Position numbers and translations under genes: made by a program | Origin: Gammaproteobacteria bacterium | GTDB lineage: Bacteria; Pseudomonadota; Gammaproteobacteria; Pseudomonadales; Azotimanducaceae | Assembly (NCBI GenBank): GCA_009841615.1 | Contig: VXLL01000035.1 | Location: 62,001-126,000, forward strand | Reading direction: 5' to 3' | Length of the DNA stretch: 64,000 nucleotides | Notes under the pieces: model-generated | Database searches by the model: none | What the model saw: the letters and a program-made list of their open reading frames with translations, nothing else | Told to the model about the DNA's origin: nothing | In this document: in pieces, positions 42,871-49,816 of the stretch | Position numbering within the stretch: the first letter of the stretch is position 1 | How the letters are laid out: each line of letters begins with the position of its first letter

Positions 42871-44238
42871 ATGACTGCGAAGACCATGGAAGAACTCACG
42901 AGTTTGTGTAAACGTCGAGGGTTTATTTTCCAATCAAGCGAGCTATATGGCGGCCTTCAAGGCATTTATGACTATGGCCCTCTAGGTGTTGAACTGAAAA
43001 ACAATTTCAAAACCGCATGGTGGCAGTCAATGGTGTATGAGCGCGATGATGTCGAGGGTATTGACGCTTCAATCTTGACGCACCAAAAAGTACTCCAATA
43101 TTCAGGTCACGAGGCGACGTTTACAGATCCACTCGTCGATTGTAAAGTTTGTAAACGACGCAGTCGGTTCGACTCTCTGTCTTCCGACAAGTGTCCCCAT
43201 TGTGGATCCACGGAACTCACAGAACCCAGACCTTTCAATCTTATGTTTAAGACTAACGTAGGACCCGTGGAAGACTCAAGTAGTTTTGCGTATCTCCGTC
43301 CTGAGACCGCTCAGCATATCTTCGCCAACTTCAAGAACATCATTGATGCCACGGCGCGCACCGTACCTTTCGGTATTGCTCAAATGGGTAAAGCCTTTCG
43401 CAACGAAATCACGCCACGAAACTTCATTTTTCGGGTGCGCGAACTTGAAATCATGGAACTGGAATACTTTGTACAACCGGGCACCGATGAGGACTGGCAT
43501 CGCCGATGGGTCGAGGAAAGACTAAACTGGTGGGAAGCTCAAGGAGTCGCGCGGGATCGATTGTCTCTATACGAAGTACCGGAATCGGAATTATCGCACT
43601 ATTCCAAAGCAACGATCGACCTCATGTACCCGTTCCCACATGGTGTGGAAGAGCTCGAGGGTATTGCGAACCGTACCGACTTTGACTTAGGTTCACATAC
43701 AAAACAACAAAGTGAGCTCAACATTCAAGCCAAAGTGGAAGAAAACCCAGACTCTACAACGCGTTTAGCCTTGCACGATCGAAACAACAACAGCTGGTTT
43801 GTACCTTTCGTAATAGAACCGTCCGCGGGTGTCGACAGAGGGATTCTCGCAGTCCTGAACGAAGCCTACGAAATTGAACAGCTAGACAATGGTTCTGAGC
43901 GAACGGTGCTGAGATTACGACCACATTTATCGCCGATCAAAGTAGCGGTGATACCATTGAAGAAAAATCACGAGGGTATCGTGGAGCAGGCTCGCAAGAT
44001 CGTACGACAACTACAGAAGTTAAAACTGGGGCGGATGTTCTTTGAAAACACTGGAAACATTGGCAAGAGTTATCGCAAACATGATGAGGCGGGCACCCCG
44101 CTTTGCGTGACAGTGGATTTTGAAACCTTGGAAGACAGTACGGTTACAGTTAGGGACCGAGACACCATGCTGCAGCAGCGTGTAGGCATAGCAGAATTAG
44201 GTTCGCTCGTAACCGATGTCGTTCTCAGCAGCAGTTAG
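42871..44238 (+). CDS. glyS: glycyl-tRNA synthetase, single-chain (alpha2) type
   Basis: A 455-residue class II aminoacyl-tRNA synthetase of the dimeric eukaryote/archaea-like type, not the alpha2-beta2 GlyQ/GlyS form of E. coli. Motif 2 and 3 regions are seen as [17 protein letters not shown] and [13 protein letters not shown] zinc-binding insertion has CKVCKRR and CPHCGS. The C-terminal anticodon-binding domain starts near residue 365 ([11 protein letters not shown]). This type is common in Firmicutes and actinobacteria but is scattered in proteobacteria, so horizontal origin is possible. Confidence 0.93.
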
Positions 44239-44310: not shown

Positions 44311-45540
44311 CTAAAACTCAGCGAAAGGTAAGGATCTTACTCCTTTACTGAGCGGCGAATTTAAACTGCCTGGATGAACCACGAAGCCATCGGAGGTCAG
44401 TTGAGGTAAATCCTGTTGGAACTTTGTTATGCTAGAAGCCATGGTACGACGTGGCGTAGAGGACAACTTCACTTCGATAGGAACTAGGTGGGATCCGGTG
44501 TCTGCGACAAAATCAACCTCAGCTCCCGCAGTAGTTCGCCAGAAATACACACTCGGCCTGCCACCTCGGTGAGTATAAGTTTTTACTAATTCTGAGAGGA
44601 CGGCTGTTTCCAAAATAGCTCCCCCCATCGGTCCAGCAAGTGCATGTTCCGGGTCTTTCAATCCAGTCAAGTGACAGAGCGTACCTACATCCGTGAAGTA
44701 GATCTTTGGAGTTTTCACGAGTCGCTTCCCAACGTTAGCATGGTAAGGACGTAGGATAGTGACTTGATAGCTTGCTTCGAGTACAGAAACCCAAGCTTTT
44801 ATTGAATTCACAGCGACTCCTAGGTCTCGAGCGATGCTAGTCAAATTCAATAGTTGACCACTTCGTGCGGCGAGGGTACGAAGAAATATCTGAAATTGTG
44901 TTAGGTCACCAATCTGTCTCAAAGTACGAACGTCGCGTTCTAAATAGGTTTGGATGTAACTCGAATGCCAAAGTGCGAGGTCTCGATCGGGGTGTGTAGT
45001 AAGTTCGGGATATCCTCCTCTCAGTAAGTCTTTCCACAAAGTGTTTGGGTCGAACGTGGTCTGAGAGGAGTCTCTAGCCGAGTCATTTTGTTCCCAGCGG
45101 AGCGGGCGATTTGGTTCGCCCGCGATCTCTCGACGCGATAACGGTAATAGGCTAAGAACAGCTACACGTCCAGCCAACGACTCGGAAACTCGGTCTGACA
45201 GTAGGATGTTTTGAGATCCGGAGAGCAGGTACTGTCCGACTGCGTTTCGATTGTTGTCTATGAGTTCCTTGATATAGGAAAGAAGTGTTGGAACTTGTTG
45301 AATTTCATCAAGAATGACGGGTGGCGGGTGTGTTGCAAGAAATCCTCGTGGATCTTCGATTGCAAATGTTCGAATGTCAGGAAGTTCGAGTGAAACGTAT
45401 CGATATTCGTTACCGAAGACATGCTTTAAAACCGTTGTTTTCCCTGATTGACGGGGACCAGTGAGGACAACCGCGGGAAATTCAGTCGCAGCTTTTGTCA
45501 AAACCGACTCGAGAGATCGAGCTATGTATTGGTTTGCCAT
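44311..45540 (-). CDS. AAA+ ATPase of the DUF4143 family
   Basis: A 409-residue ATPase of the ATP-binding/DUF4143 group. Walker A is TGPRQSGKTTVLK, Walker B is PPVILDEIQQVP, a sensor-like LLSGSQNILL follows, and the C-terminal DUF4143 part includes FLRTLAARSGQLLNLTSIARDL (winged-helix-like) and the nuclease-like AEVDFVADTG...PIEVKL. The role is unknown; genes of this family are widespread, patchy and often mobile in distribution. It lies alone between glyS and the sigma factor paralogue, on the opposite strand to glyS. A perfect 18-bp palindrome touches its start codon. Confidence 0.85.
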   Translation of the reverse strand: MANQYIARSLESVLTKAATEFPAVVLTGPRQSGKTTVLKHVFGNEYRYVSLELPDIRTFAIEDPRGFLATHPPPVILDEIQQVPTLLSYIKELIDNNRNAVGQYLLSGSQNILLSDRVSESLAGRVAVLSLLPLSRREIAGEPNRPLRWEQNDSARDSSQTTFDPNTLWKDLLRGGYPELTTHPDRDLALWHSSYIQTYLERDVRTLRQIGDLTQFQIFLRTLAARSGQLLNLTSIARDLGVAVNSIKAWVSVLEASYQVTILRPYHANVGKRLVKTPKIYFTDVGTLCHLTGLKDPEHALAGPMGGAILETAVLSELVKTYTHRGGRPSVYFWRTTAGAEVDFVADTGSHLVPIEVKLSSTPRRTMASSITKFQQDLPQLTSDGFVVHPGSLNSPLSKGVRSLPFAEF

Positions 45541-45628: not shown

Positions 45629-47443
45629 CTACTCACCATTCCTGTCGCGCAAGAACCCTCGGAGATGCTCAGACATTTTGGGGTTGCGTAATTTACGTAA
45701 TGCCGTAGCTTCGACTTTTCTGACTTGCTCTTTTGTGACGTTGAGCAATTCTCTTATTTCCTCTAAGGAATACTCGCGCGCTAAGCCGACTCCAAAGCGC
45801 ATCCGAAGAATCTCAGCTTCCTCGGAGCTCAGTTCTGTGAGAAGTTCGGTGATGATGTCGTGTAAATTCGCTGTCGTGGCGTTTTCGGCTGGTCCGATCG
45901 TATTGGGATCGTCTAGAAAGTCGCCGATCGAATTTTCGCTGTCTTGCTGGACGGGTGCATCTATGGAGATTGCCTCTACACAGACTCGCTGAATCTGGTG
46001 AATTTTCTTGTGACTAATTGTGGACTTCTGGCTAAGTTCAGCTATAGTCGGTTCACGTCCTAACTCCTGCACCAATTGTCGATGAGTTCGATTTAGACGC
46101 TTCATAGTTTCGACTAGATGCGCTGGGATTCTTATCGTTTGTGCGTTTTCAGCAATGTAGCGCGAAACCCCTTGTCTGATCCACCAAGTCGCATAAGTCG
46201 CAAACTTATAACCAAGTCGATAGTCGTATTTCTCGACAGCTTTCAACAAACCGATATTTCCTTCTTGAATCAAATCCAAAAGGTAGGGTCCACGATTGGA
46301 CAGTTTTCTAGCAATGGAAATTACGAGTCTTAAGTTTGCTTGAACCATATCTTGTTTTGCATCGGCAGCTTTCCTTTCACCCAATTTCATCTGCTCGACG
46401 ATTTCATTCAATTCGGTTCGAGAGATTCCTGCCTTTTTTAGTAAGTTGTTGATGGACTTTTGCGACTTCGCGATATCACTACTAGCATCTAGGAACTCCA
46501 CACTCCAAGGTTCTATCGATTTGATCTCTTGTCGTAACCAGTGCACATCGGACAGTGTTTGATTCACGAGTCTTGACTTAGGCATACCGCAAGCGAGACA
46601 CAATTGGTAAATTCTGTGCTCGTGCTTTTGTACTTTTGTCTGTAATGTGTGCGGTAATGAGTGCAGTTCCTTACGCAACTCCGGTACCAATTTGAAGCGT
46701 GAGTACGTATTACAAAGTCGTTTTTGTGCTCCTAAATACTTTCTCGACGATCTTCCTTCCGAACGAATCACTCTTTTGAAATTTCCATACACTCTCTTGA
46801 GTTCTGAAAAACGCTCTAGTGCAATCTTGGGATCGATGATGTTGTTTCGTGTCCCATGTGACTCTTGAGCCGAGTTGGAACTAGCTGTTGTTGCCGGTAC
46901 TACAGTGCGTACTGGGTCGAGAAAACCGGATACAACGCTCTTAAGTTTTTGTTCTCGTCGTGCTTTACCGTGTTTCGTAAGCAAGCGTTCTACTACGCCC
47001 GGAAATCGCGCCGCGGCAGCTGCCTCTTCTCGCATACCTTCCTCGTAGCGCATTGCAATTTCAATCTCTTCGTCACGCGAAAGTAACGTGCTCTGTCGTA
47101 AGCCGCGTAAATAGCTGTATGAGAGACTTGTACTTTCGCCATTACGCGTTTCACGTACACTGATTACAGCGACATTTGCATCCGTTTCAAAATCCGAACC
47201 ATTCGTCCTGGATGATTCTTGGGAAACTTCAAAGTCTTCGCGAAGCCCGTGAATAGGAATTTCTAAACTACACAACAAGCTTATGACGTTGTCTAGTAAA
47301 TTCTCACGAGGGGTTTCATCGTCAAGATATTCGGTGATTTCGTCGACTGTCAGGTAACCTTGTTCCTGACCTATGTCGATCAAATCCTTGATTTGGATTT
47401 GCCTTGACTCAGTGTGTGATGTTTGCATATTAGTACTCGGCAT
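45629..47443 (-). CDS. RpoD-like sigma-70 factor, divergent paralogue
   Basis: A 604-residue sigma factor of the full RpoD layout: region 1.1, a long non-conserved insert, and regions 2-4 ([52 protein letters not shown]). It differs from the neighbouring RpoD at promoter-contact positions: region 2.4 has [18 protein letters not shown], and the -35 helix has TKEQVRKVE where RpoD has TRERIRQIE. It should therefore read a modified promoter set. It ends with the usual C-terminal [11 protein letters not shown]. It is transcribed toward the DUF4143 gene; the split tRNA lies immediately upstream on the other strand. Confidence 0.9.
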
Positions 47444-47533: not shown

Positions 47534-47885
47534 GGGCCCATAGCTCAGTTGGTTAGAGCAGTGGACTCATCAAATAGGTGCGTTCATCGTGAAAGCGTTG
47601 AATAGAACGGGATGAATTCAGGGAAACCTAAGACGATTACGTCATCGTTAAGGCAACCTTGAGCCAAACCAACGATACATCGTTGGGAGGTGCAGAGACT
47701 ACCTGAGAACTGATCGCAGTTCGCGCGATCGAGAGTTCTTAATAACAGGCTTGAGCGTCCCGCGCCCTAACCAGCATGTGCTGTCGGGCGATGAGATAGT
47801 CCACGCCACTGGAAACAGTGGGTGTCTAGATTCTTCTAGATCGTGAATCCATAGGTCCCAGGTTCGAGTCCTGGTGGGCCCACCA
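47534..47885 (+). tRNA. tRNA-Ile2 (CAU anticodon) gene split by an intron
   Basis: The 5' exon (47534-47570) gives acceptor arm GGGCCCA, D arm GCTC...GAGC and anticodon stem GTGGA, ending in CTCAT. The 3' exon (47846-47885) continues with AA, stem TCCAT, variable loop AGGTC, T arm CCAGG-TTCGAGT-CCTGG, acceptor TGGGCCC, A and encoded CCA. Joined, they make a normal 77-nt cloverleaf with anticodon CAU. The GGGCCC acceptor stem fits the minor isoleucine tRNA, in which TilS converts C34 to lysidine, better than either methionine tRNA. The intron lies between U36 and A37. Confidence 0.93.
47571..47845 (+). ncRNA. group I self-splicing intron in the tRNA anticodon loop
   Basis: 275 nt without a reading frame. 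P1: exon CAU plus intron C pairs with GGUG (47577-47580), placing the conserved U-G wobble at the 5' splice site. P3: GGGATG (47609-47614) with CGTCCC (47756-47761). P4: TCAGGG (from 47618) with CCTTGA (from 47657). P5 CCT/AGG with an ACGAT/ATCGT extension; P6a AACGA/TCGTT. P7: GACTA (47697-47701) with TAGTC (47797-47801). P8: CGCCC (47763-47767) with GGGCG (47786-47790). P9: CCACT/AGTGG closed by GGAAAC, then a TCTAGA hairpin. The last base is G (omega-G, 47845). An additional AGAACT...AGTTCT hairpin lies between P7 and P3. The CAU/GUG guide pairing is the same as in the Azoarcus tRNA-Ile intron. Confidence 0.92.
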
Positions 47886-47998: not shown

Positions 47999-49816
47999 TT
48001 ATCCGTTCCAATCCGTAAGTCGAGACTTTAGATGTCGCAGAGCTTTTGCTTCGATTTGACGAATGCGCTCTCGAGTGATATTGAACACTCTACCGACTTC
48101 TTCGAGTGTATATTCTGTGTTCTGACCGATACCAAATCGCATCCTTAGAACTTTCGCTTCGCGGGAACTAAGTTCGCCCAAGCGTTCGTGAATGACGTCC
48201 CTCAACCCTCGAGATTCTGCTTGATCCATTGGCGTAGATTCATACGGGTCTTTGAGAAAATCACCTAAACTAGCGTCGTCGTCTTCACCTATCGGAGCAT
48301 CTGTAGATGCTGGTTGAATACTGATTCCTTGAATATGTCGAATCTTATCAAGTATTAATTCCATTCTTGCAGACAGTTCATCGACCGTGGGCTCGCGTCC
48401 TAGTTCTTGAGACAACTGTCTATGGATGCGGTTATGCTTGTTAACCAAATCAAACATGTGAACCGGTATTCGAATAGTCCGAGATTGATCCGAAATCGAG
48501 CGCGTAATTGCTTGCCGAATCCACCACGTGGCATATGTCGAAAATTTATACCCACGGCGGTATTCAAACTTGTCGACGGCTTTCATCAACCCAATATTGC
48601 CTTCTTGGATTAAGTCGAGAAAGTGAAGACCACGATTGTTGTATTTTTTGGCGATCGAAATCACCAAACGCAGATTCGCTTTAACCATTTGGCGTTTTGC
48701 GCTTTCCATCTTGCGCTGGCCTTTGGTAATTCGACTATCAATGTCCTTAAGGGTCGAGTACTTTTTCACACCACTATCGTTAAGAATTGCATTGACGCGT
48801 CGCTGATGGCGAAATATCTCTGTTTTCTTTATCAGTAAACCACTACTGTAAGGATAGTCTCCCCGAATGTGGTGGCGCATGTCAGTTATAGTGCCCGGCG
48901 GCAAGACTCGTACCAGTTCTTTGAAAATTTCTCTCGGCATACCGCTCTCCCTTACGCAAATCTGAAAGAGCAGCTTTATTCGCCGGCGGACTTCCGCCAT
49001 AGCATTAAGTGGTTGGCCGAGCAGCTCTTCATGTGCTTCAGGTGTTAGTTTGAATCGAGAGAAACAGTCAATTAACTTTTCATGCGATGCCGCCAATTCG
49101 GCTTGTTCAGATTTGTTCAACCGGCTGGGGCGTTTGTTTTTGGTAATCCGTTCAACGACCTTCTTGTGTTTTTCGTTGACTTTGCGTAGAGCTTCGAAGC
49201 GAGTTTGGGCGATCTCGGGATCCGGCCCCCGAGTACGTGGTGTAGTCTGTTGCGGAGGCTTTTTAGTCGCGTCGATTTGTACTGGATTCTGAATTTCGGC
49301 ATCAGGATCTAGGTAGCCGACTAGTAAGTCGCTTAGCTTCTTCTTTTTATTGGTGTTGTCATATTGTTCGATTAACCAATCGACCGTACCGGGGAATTCT
49401 GCAACGGCTTTGAGAATGTCTCGCATACCTTCTTCGATCTCGCGCGCAATTTTGATCTCATCGTCTCGCGTGAGTAACTCAACTCCCCCCATTTCGCGCA
49501 AGTACATGCGTGCGGGATCGGTTGTTCGGCGCGCCTCGGAAGTGACCGCGGCTAGAGCTATCGCAGCCTCGTCAGCAGCAACATCGTCCGAAGAGTTTTC
49601 GGTAGTGGTAAACAGATTTTCTCCGTCGGGAGCAGCTTCATCGACGCTAATCCCGAGGTCCATCAGGTTATGTATGATGTCATCGATCTCGTCTTCGTCG
49701 CGGTCATTACTTAACACGTCGTGAATATCTGCGATAACCAAGTAGCCTTGGTCGCGTCCGCGTTCAATGAGTTCTTCGATGGGACTCTGTTCGGTATCGG
49801 TATTTGGATTGGGCAT
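47999..49816 (-). CDS. rpoD: primary sigma factor RpoD
   Basis: A 605-residue housekeeping sigma-70. Region 1.1 ([16 protein letters not shown]), 1.2 ([22 protein letters not shown]), a non-conserved region, 2.1-2.4 ([38 protein letters not shown], then [13 protein letters not shown]), region 3 and 4.2 ([17 protein letters not shown]) are all intact. It ends in [10 protein letters not shown] and lacks the usual terminal SEVLRSFLDD-like segment found in E. coli. It is preceded by dnaG, yqeY and rpsU, the macromolecular-synthesis operon, so this copy is the primary sigma. AGAGGTAG precedes the ATG. Confidence 0.95.

Follow-up and report, generated by a model that had tools for sequence, protein, structure and literature searches.

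The tRNA-Ile2(CAU) gene in the stretch of gammaproteobacterial DNA analyzed here (64,000 nucleotides, hereafter the window) is split in its anticodon loop by an insert that the sequence evidence identifies as a group I intron. It is highly likely that this intron is self-splicing, that it belongs to a group IA-like family marked by a P7.1/P7.2 domain, and that the decoding of AUA depends on its removal. Group I introns in bacterial tRNA genes are textbook knowledge, and the one in the window is ordinary in kind, with strong support for its structure; it is the architecture that is unusual for the site. The tRNA-Ile2(CAU) gene, the best-studied site of a small ribozyme, houses two ribozyme architectures, one of which is widespread in Gammaproteobacteria.

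A split tRNA gene with a group I fold

The insert of 275 nt separates U36 from A37, exactly at the coordinates given in the earlier note (Table 1). With its default settings, ARAGORN finds no tRNA at this site or elsewhere in the window, nor does it detect one in the gene of 352 nt before splicing; once the 275 nt are removed, it recognizes the joined halves as one 77-nt CAU cloverleaf. The earlier note, which had proposed running a tRNA program on the joined exons, had expected a perfect cloverleaf; the cloverleaf is there, but it contains one G-U pair (27-43). When introns are allowed, ARAGORN names the locus "tRNA-Gln (ctg)," a placement that is off by one and that we rejected because it drops U36 and leaves the terminal G in the exon, contrary to the U-G and omega-G rules. 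For annotation, this means that a tRNA-Ile2 gene with a P7.1-type intron is missed by ARAGORN in its default mode or named tRNA-Gln with introns allowed.

The Rfam group I model RF00028 matches positions 47559-47822 with 73.7 bits (E 8e-17), above the gathering score of 50, which answers the covariance search that the earlier note had called for. The structure was written from the intron sequence and then counted on 32 homologous introns (alignment A1, from which L017, 367 nt, is left out). Across these rows, 92.9% of the cells are paired, and in 39 of the 77 pairs both members vary. Covariation scores 0.342, compared with 0.131 for shuffles, none of 500 of which scored as high, and sliding the partner strand by 1-3 columns lowers the paired cells to 34-43%. 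The folding z-score of the intron is -3.9, and 2 of 200 shuffles fold equally well or better. On the RF00028 score, the covariation, and the folding z-score, we rejected a chance resemblance to a group I intron; with a complete group I core, an archaeal-type, protein-spliced intron was likewise discarded.

A P1 with a U-G wobble, P3-P9, a GNRA-type loop, and an omega G had been read from the letters, and we find P1, P2-P9, a GAAA loop in P9, and the terminal G to be present. Neither the U-G wobble at the 5' splice site nor the terminal G varies in any of the 32 rows. The P3-P8 core, including P4, P6, and P7, is supported by covariation as well as by pairing across the 32 rows, and no row lacks the pairing of P6, P7, P7.1, P8, or the part of P1 that lies exonward of the splice site. 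The weak parts of the fold are the P5 extension, the outer pairs of P9, and the hairpin after P9. The intron has no endonuclease-sized reading frame, as had been claimed: over the six frames, the longest open stretch is 64 residues on the plus strand and 60 on the minus strand, and no reading frame of at least 100 aa overlaps the intron.

Table 1. Features of the split tRNA-Ile2(CAU) gene, its intron, and the adjacent genes, in window positions; rows and cells refer to the 32 aligned homologous introns
Feature	Position	Strand	Remarks
Sigma-70 (RpoD-like) paralogue, one side of the tRNA-Ile2 gene	45629..47443	-	
5' half of tRNA-Ile2(CAU), up to U36, ending ...CUCAU	47534..47570	+	
Group I intron, 275 nt, after U36 of tRNA-Ile2	47571..47845	+	
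Guide GUG, pairs with anticodon CAU (P1; U36-G wobble)	47578..47580	+	invariant in 32/32 rows
P2 hairpin	47583..47602	+	both-side changes in 6/6 counted pairs; 94.3% of cells paired
P3, 5' strand, partner of 47756-47762	47608..47614	+	99.1% of cells paired; 2/7 pairs change on both sides
P4, 5' strand, partner of 47658-47662	47618..47622	+	99.4% of cells paired
P5 with variable extension	47627..47653	+	cells paired: P5 84.4%, extension 67.3%
P6 and P6a	47663..47691	+	P6 100% paired; P6a, both-side changes in 7/7 pairs
P7, 5' strand, guanosine-binding helix, partner of 47797-47801	47697..47701	+	invariant in 32/32 rows
P7.1/P7.2 domain between P7 and P3	47702..47749	+	P7.2: 3/4 pairs change on both sides
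P3, 3' strand	47756..47762	+	covariation/pairing count
P8	47763..47790	+	100% of cells paired; 1/5 pairs with both-side changes
P7, 3' strand	47797..47801	+	covariation/pairing count
P9 with GAAA loop	47806..47821	+	both-side changes in 5/6 pairs; 84.4% of cells paired
Extra hairpin after P9	47825..47840	+	in some rows only, poorly conserved; brackets partly shifted relative to the gaps of the alignment
Terminal (omega) G	47845..47845	+	invariant in 32/32 rows
3' half of tRNA-Ile2, CCA encoded	47846..47885	+	
Sigma-70 (RpoD-like) gene, other side of the tRNA-Ile2 gene	47999..49816	-	

Predicted splicing and the decoding of AUA

We expect the window intron to follow the mechanism of the Azoarcus intron. 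The transcribed intron would fold so that P1 presents the U36-G wobble, and an external guanosine held in P7 would cut after U36. The freed U36 would attack the bond that follows the terminal G and so close up the anticodon loop, whereupon TilS could make lysidine at C34 and tRNA-Ile2 would read AUA. The gene structure, the insertion site, and, by covariation, the fold are shown, whereas we infer this reaction, its independence of protein, and the TilS step; the intron very probably cuts itself out of the tRNA-Ile2 transcript. A decayed or protein-dependent intron, which retains its fold but splices slowly or needs a host factor, might be suspected from the poor conservation of the P5 extension and of the hairpin after P9. 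Such a state is very unlikely, however, as the catalytic helices P3, P4, P6, P7, P7.1, and P8 are paired in 99-100% of the cells, with P7 invariant, and loss of splicing would deprive the genus of its AUA-reading tRNA.

A second, intact tRNA-Ile2(CAU) gene had been named in the earlier note as an observation that would speak against its reading. We searched for such a gene both in the genome itself, a draft of 2.66 Mb in 38 contigs that is 92.3% complete and may therefore lack an existing intact copy, and in 117 genomes. None is present among the 32 tRNA matches of the draft. Two of these carry CAU, and judged by their hallmarks, they are presumably the elongator and initiator methionine tRNAs and not of the Ile2 type. 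The joined tRNA of the window forms a CAU cloverleaf that differs from those of Met and fMet tRNAs. TilS is present in the same genome (158.3 bits, above the cut-off), and AUA is in use, occurring 31 times as a codon in five reading frames of the flanks.

The search of the 117 genomes with the joined tRNA returned, among the matches listed, no intact tRNA-Ile2 beside an intron: genomes with the tRNA-Ile2 intron have only the two tRNA halves among these matches, and the full-length matches listed, with identities of at most 97%, all come from genomes in which no tRNA-Ile2 intron was found. In nine genomes of the family that have no group I match, the joined tRNA retrieved nothing better than weak hits (best E about 8e-10 or weaker), which leaves their tRNA-Ile2 unaccounted for. 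With no intact copy found among the matches listed, the claim that AUA decoding depends on splicing would hold.

The P7.1/P7.2 domain and the Azoarcus-type intron

Introns bearing P7.1/P7.2 are common in tRNA genes of Gammaproteobacteria, and their architecture is unlike that of the IC3 intron that occupies the same bond in Azoarcus. The earlier note had noticed an additional hairpin between P7 and P3 and had concluded that the intron is not a plain copy of the Azoarcus type. That much stands, but the hairpin is no local addition: it is a conserved P7.1/P7.2 domain, seen in 33/33 family introns (32 aligned, and L017 read separately) and in 23/23 tRNA-Ile2 introns among the 67 loci from the class, all of which had been retrieved with RF00028, not through a search for the domain itself. 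Within the tRNA-Ile2 introns, P7.2 covaries. P7.1 is invariant as CCUG/CAGG in all family introns; it is compensated as GCGG/CCGC in a tRNA-Lys(CUU) intron (L229), is G-rich/C-rich in two tRNA-Thr(UGU) introns (L220, L226), and reads GGGUGC/GCACCC in another tRNA-Ile2 intron (L291).

The P7.1 type extends to other host RNAs. It is found after U36 in tRNA-Thr(UGU) and tRNA-Lys(CUU) genes (L218, L220, L226, L229), and the guides, read by eye, follow the exons: GUG for CAU, GCA for UGU (Thr), and GAG for CUU (Lys). Two loci that had looked tRNA-Ile2-like under a loose pattern (L223, L226) turned out to be tRNA-Thr. In Hymenobacter, a tmRNA gene contains a group I intron (L150:6575-7153, minus strand) whose core and P7.1 are like those of the tRNA-Ile2 introns.

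In the consulted portions of the literature, P7.1/P7.2 is tied to group IA2 introns (PMC4227781, PMC1995217, PMC3984707). Those of phage Twort and of IStrons likewise have extra helices between P7 and P3 (PMC1995217, PMC4227781, likened here by description only); their hosts, unlike that of the window intron, are not tRNA genes. The intron family may accordingly be called group IA-like, a subgroup name taken from P7.1/P7.2 and not from a subgroup model. The group I introns described from the T-loop of tmRNA, as presented in part of PMC11915505, differ from the tRNA-Ile2 intron in both host RNA and site. As to tRNA genes, the relevant part of a 2014 review places bacterial group I introns in cyanobacteria and in alpha- and betaproteobacteria (PMC4033280), and excerpts of the tRNAscan-SE 2.0 paper mention group I introns in the tRNA-Ile2 of Acidovorax and Burkholderia, the same host tRNA as in the window (PMC8450103). 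We found no description of a P7.1-bearing bacterial tRNA-Ile2 intron in the open literature; such introns may be catalogued in subscription papers or subgroup databases. PMC6125680, PMC4853749, and PMC12373953 contribute nothing decisive here. An identity of the P7.1-type tRNA-Ile2 family with the cyanobacterial tRNA-fMet introns, which split another CAU anticodon loop, is unlikely. Passages of PMC8450103 and PMC4033280 do put anticodon-loop fMet introns on record.

The group IC3 intron of Azoarcus BH72 pre-tRNA-Ile(CAU) lies at the bond between U36 and A37, has the guide GUG, a U-G wobble, and an omega G, and is not known to contain an endonuclease gene. The window intron shares with it the tRNA, the insertion after U36, the guide, the wobble, and the omega G, and it likewise is without an endonuclease gene. 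In Azoarcus-type IC3 introns of tRNA-Ile, P7 typically leads straight to P3, with no P7.1/P7.2. This direct run is missing in the window intron, which, unlike that of Azoarcus, has a length of 275 nt and a P7.1/P7.2 domain of 48 nt. The identity of the GUG guide with that of Azoarcus, to which the earlier note had drawn attention, is real, but it is no sign of kinship because the CAU exon dictates the guide. A further intron at the same tRNA-Ile2 bond, L295, which comes from a different genome within the class (G612), is without P7.1 and has an architecture that we take to be Azoarcus-like.

Trees were computed from the intron cores after removal of the P7.1 stretch, with only about 140 columns used; 14 of 21 IC3-like rows were in the first tree and 19 in the second (5 of 7 recovered, two partial). 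A 100/100 branch separates 21 P7.1-type introns (Ile2, Thr, Lys, and tmRNA) from the IC3-like ones (Leu, Arg, and L295), and with them the window intron separates from the introns of tRNA-Leu and tRNA-Arg, subject to the long branches, of which that of L295 is very long (3.0 to 3.7).

These data bear on whether the window intron goes back to the same insertion as the Azoarcus-type tRNA-Ile2 intron, P7.1/P7.2 having arisen along one line or disappeared along the other. The same bond and the same guide GUG within one class would fit such a descent, as would the higher likelihood (by 4.1; p 0.61) when L295 is placed on the P7.1 side, and a single clade of all tRNA-Ile2 introns is only marginally disfavored (p 0.057). 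Yet the guide follows from the exon; L295 passes from P7 to P3 as the introns of tRNA-Leu and tRNA-Arg do, and the intron to which it is most identical (66%) lies in tRNA-Leu; and the P7.1 type is also found in tRNA-Thr, tRNA-Lys, and tmRNA. The rejection of the window intron and L295 as a sister pair (p 0.023) weighs little because that constraint shuts out the other tRNA-Ile2 introns too. We consider a shared insertion unlikely. That the window intron stems from an insertion separate from that of the Azoarcus-type intron is likely but not settled, and independent colonization of the tRNA-Ile2 bond is plausible.

A fuller history can be put forward only tentatively. Two unrelated group I lineages may have colonized U36/A37 of this essential tRNA independently, with the P7.1 lineage, in whose members read here no endonuclease gene occurs, spreading through RNAs that have a suitable U (tRNA-Ile2, tRNA-Thr(UGU), tRNA-Lys(CUU), and a tmRNA) and rewriting its guides in tRNAs, as would be expected from reverse splicing, followed by genus-wide fixation with dependence on it for AUA. 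The two architectures offer natural test pairs, both for the role of P7.1/P7.2 in splicing the same exons and for the movement of introns without endonucleases between tRNAs.

Distribution and genomic surroundings

A search for the same intron in related tRNA-Ile2 genes, also suggested in the earlier note, showed it to be widespread. Among the 117 genomes searched as relatives, a set that contains the own genome, group I matches occur in 38, and in 33 of the 38 an intron was placed at U36/A37 of tRNA-Ile2. The whole tRNA-Ile2 intron is present in 17 of the 18 genomes of the genus, and in the eighteenth (G003), a contig starts within the same intron; of the other family members, 16/55 have it. 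Scans of the class and of the phylum gave a group I match in 56/369 and 34/398 genomes, respectively, both lower bounds owing to stricter filters and to the few candidates scored per genome. From these matches, 67 loci were fetched for the class and 29 for the phylum, besides L001.

A pattern spanning P7 and P7.1 retrieved at least 120 stretches in named genomes, which by their titles are mainly gammaproteobacterial (e.g., Lysobacter, Luteimonas, Dyella, Rhodanobacter, Woeseiaceae, and Steroidobacteraceae). The host is tRNA-Ile2 in 118 of the 120 loci listed, a count that informs on the host gene and not on the frequency of P7.1, which the pattern requires. Both tRNA halves are present in 113; in the other five (L123, L154, L179, L184, L197), the fetched stretch ends with only one half. 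The remaining two are the tmRNA intron L150 and a chance match in coding DNA (L192).

The genome has a second group I intron, which is IC3-like and lies in tRNA-Leu(UAA), by our reading after U34 (L002, G000:C3:128564-128772, minus strand); an intron of tRNA-Leu(UAA) is present in 18/18 genomes of the genus. The IC3-like introns of tRNA-Leu(UAA) resemble that of tRNA-Ile2 in being group I introns of an anticodon loop and differ from it in lying after U34, in being without P7.1, and in falling on the opposite side of the 100/100 branch. Elsewhere in the family, two genomes have a tRNA-Arg(CCU) gene split by an intron of group I (L077, L089). Within the genus, 23S rRNA carries a group I intron about 655 nt long in three genomes (L062, L063, L064), and the L062 copy encodes a LAGLIDADG protein.

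The two sigma-70 (RpoD-like) genes that flank the tRNA-Ile2 gene are both complete and 37% identical to each other; the copy at 45629-47443 is also found in close relatives. The fetched stretch contains a sigma-70 gene at 25 of the 33 loci of the family, as do 81 of the 120 named stretches listed, and its recurrence as a neighbor points to an old locus. We take the order dnaG-rpoD-tRNA-Ile2 to be a gammaproteobacterial neighborhood. Next to the sigma factor gene is one for an AAA_14/DUF4143 ATPase (44311-45540). At 42871-44238 is a glycyl-tRNA synthetase-like gene of the single-chain form (class II core plus HGTP anticodon domain); glycyl-tRNA synthetases of Gammaproteobacteria are usually of the two-subunit type.
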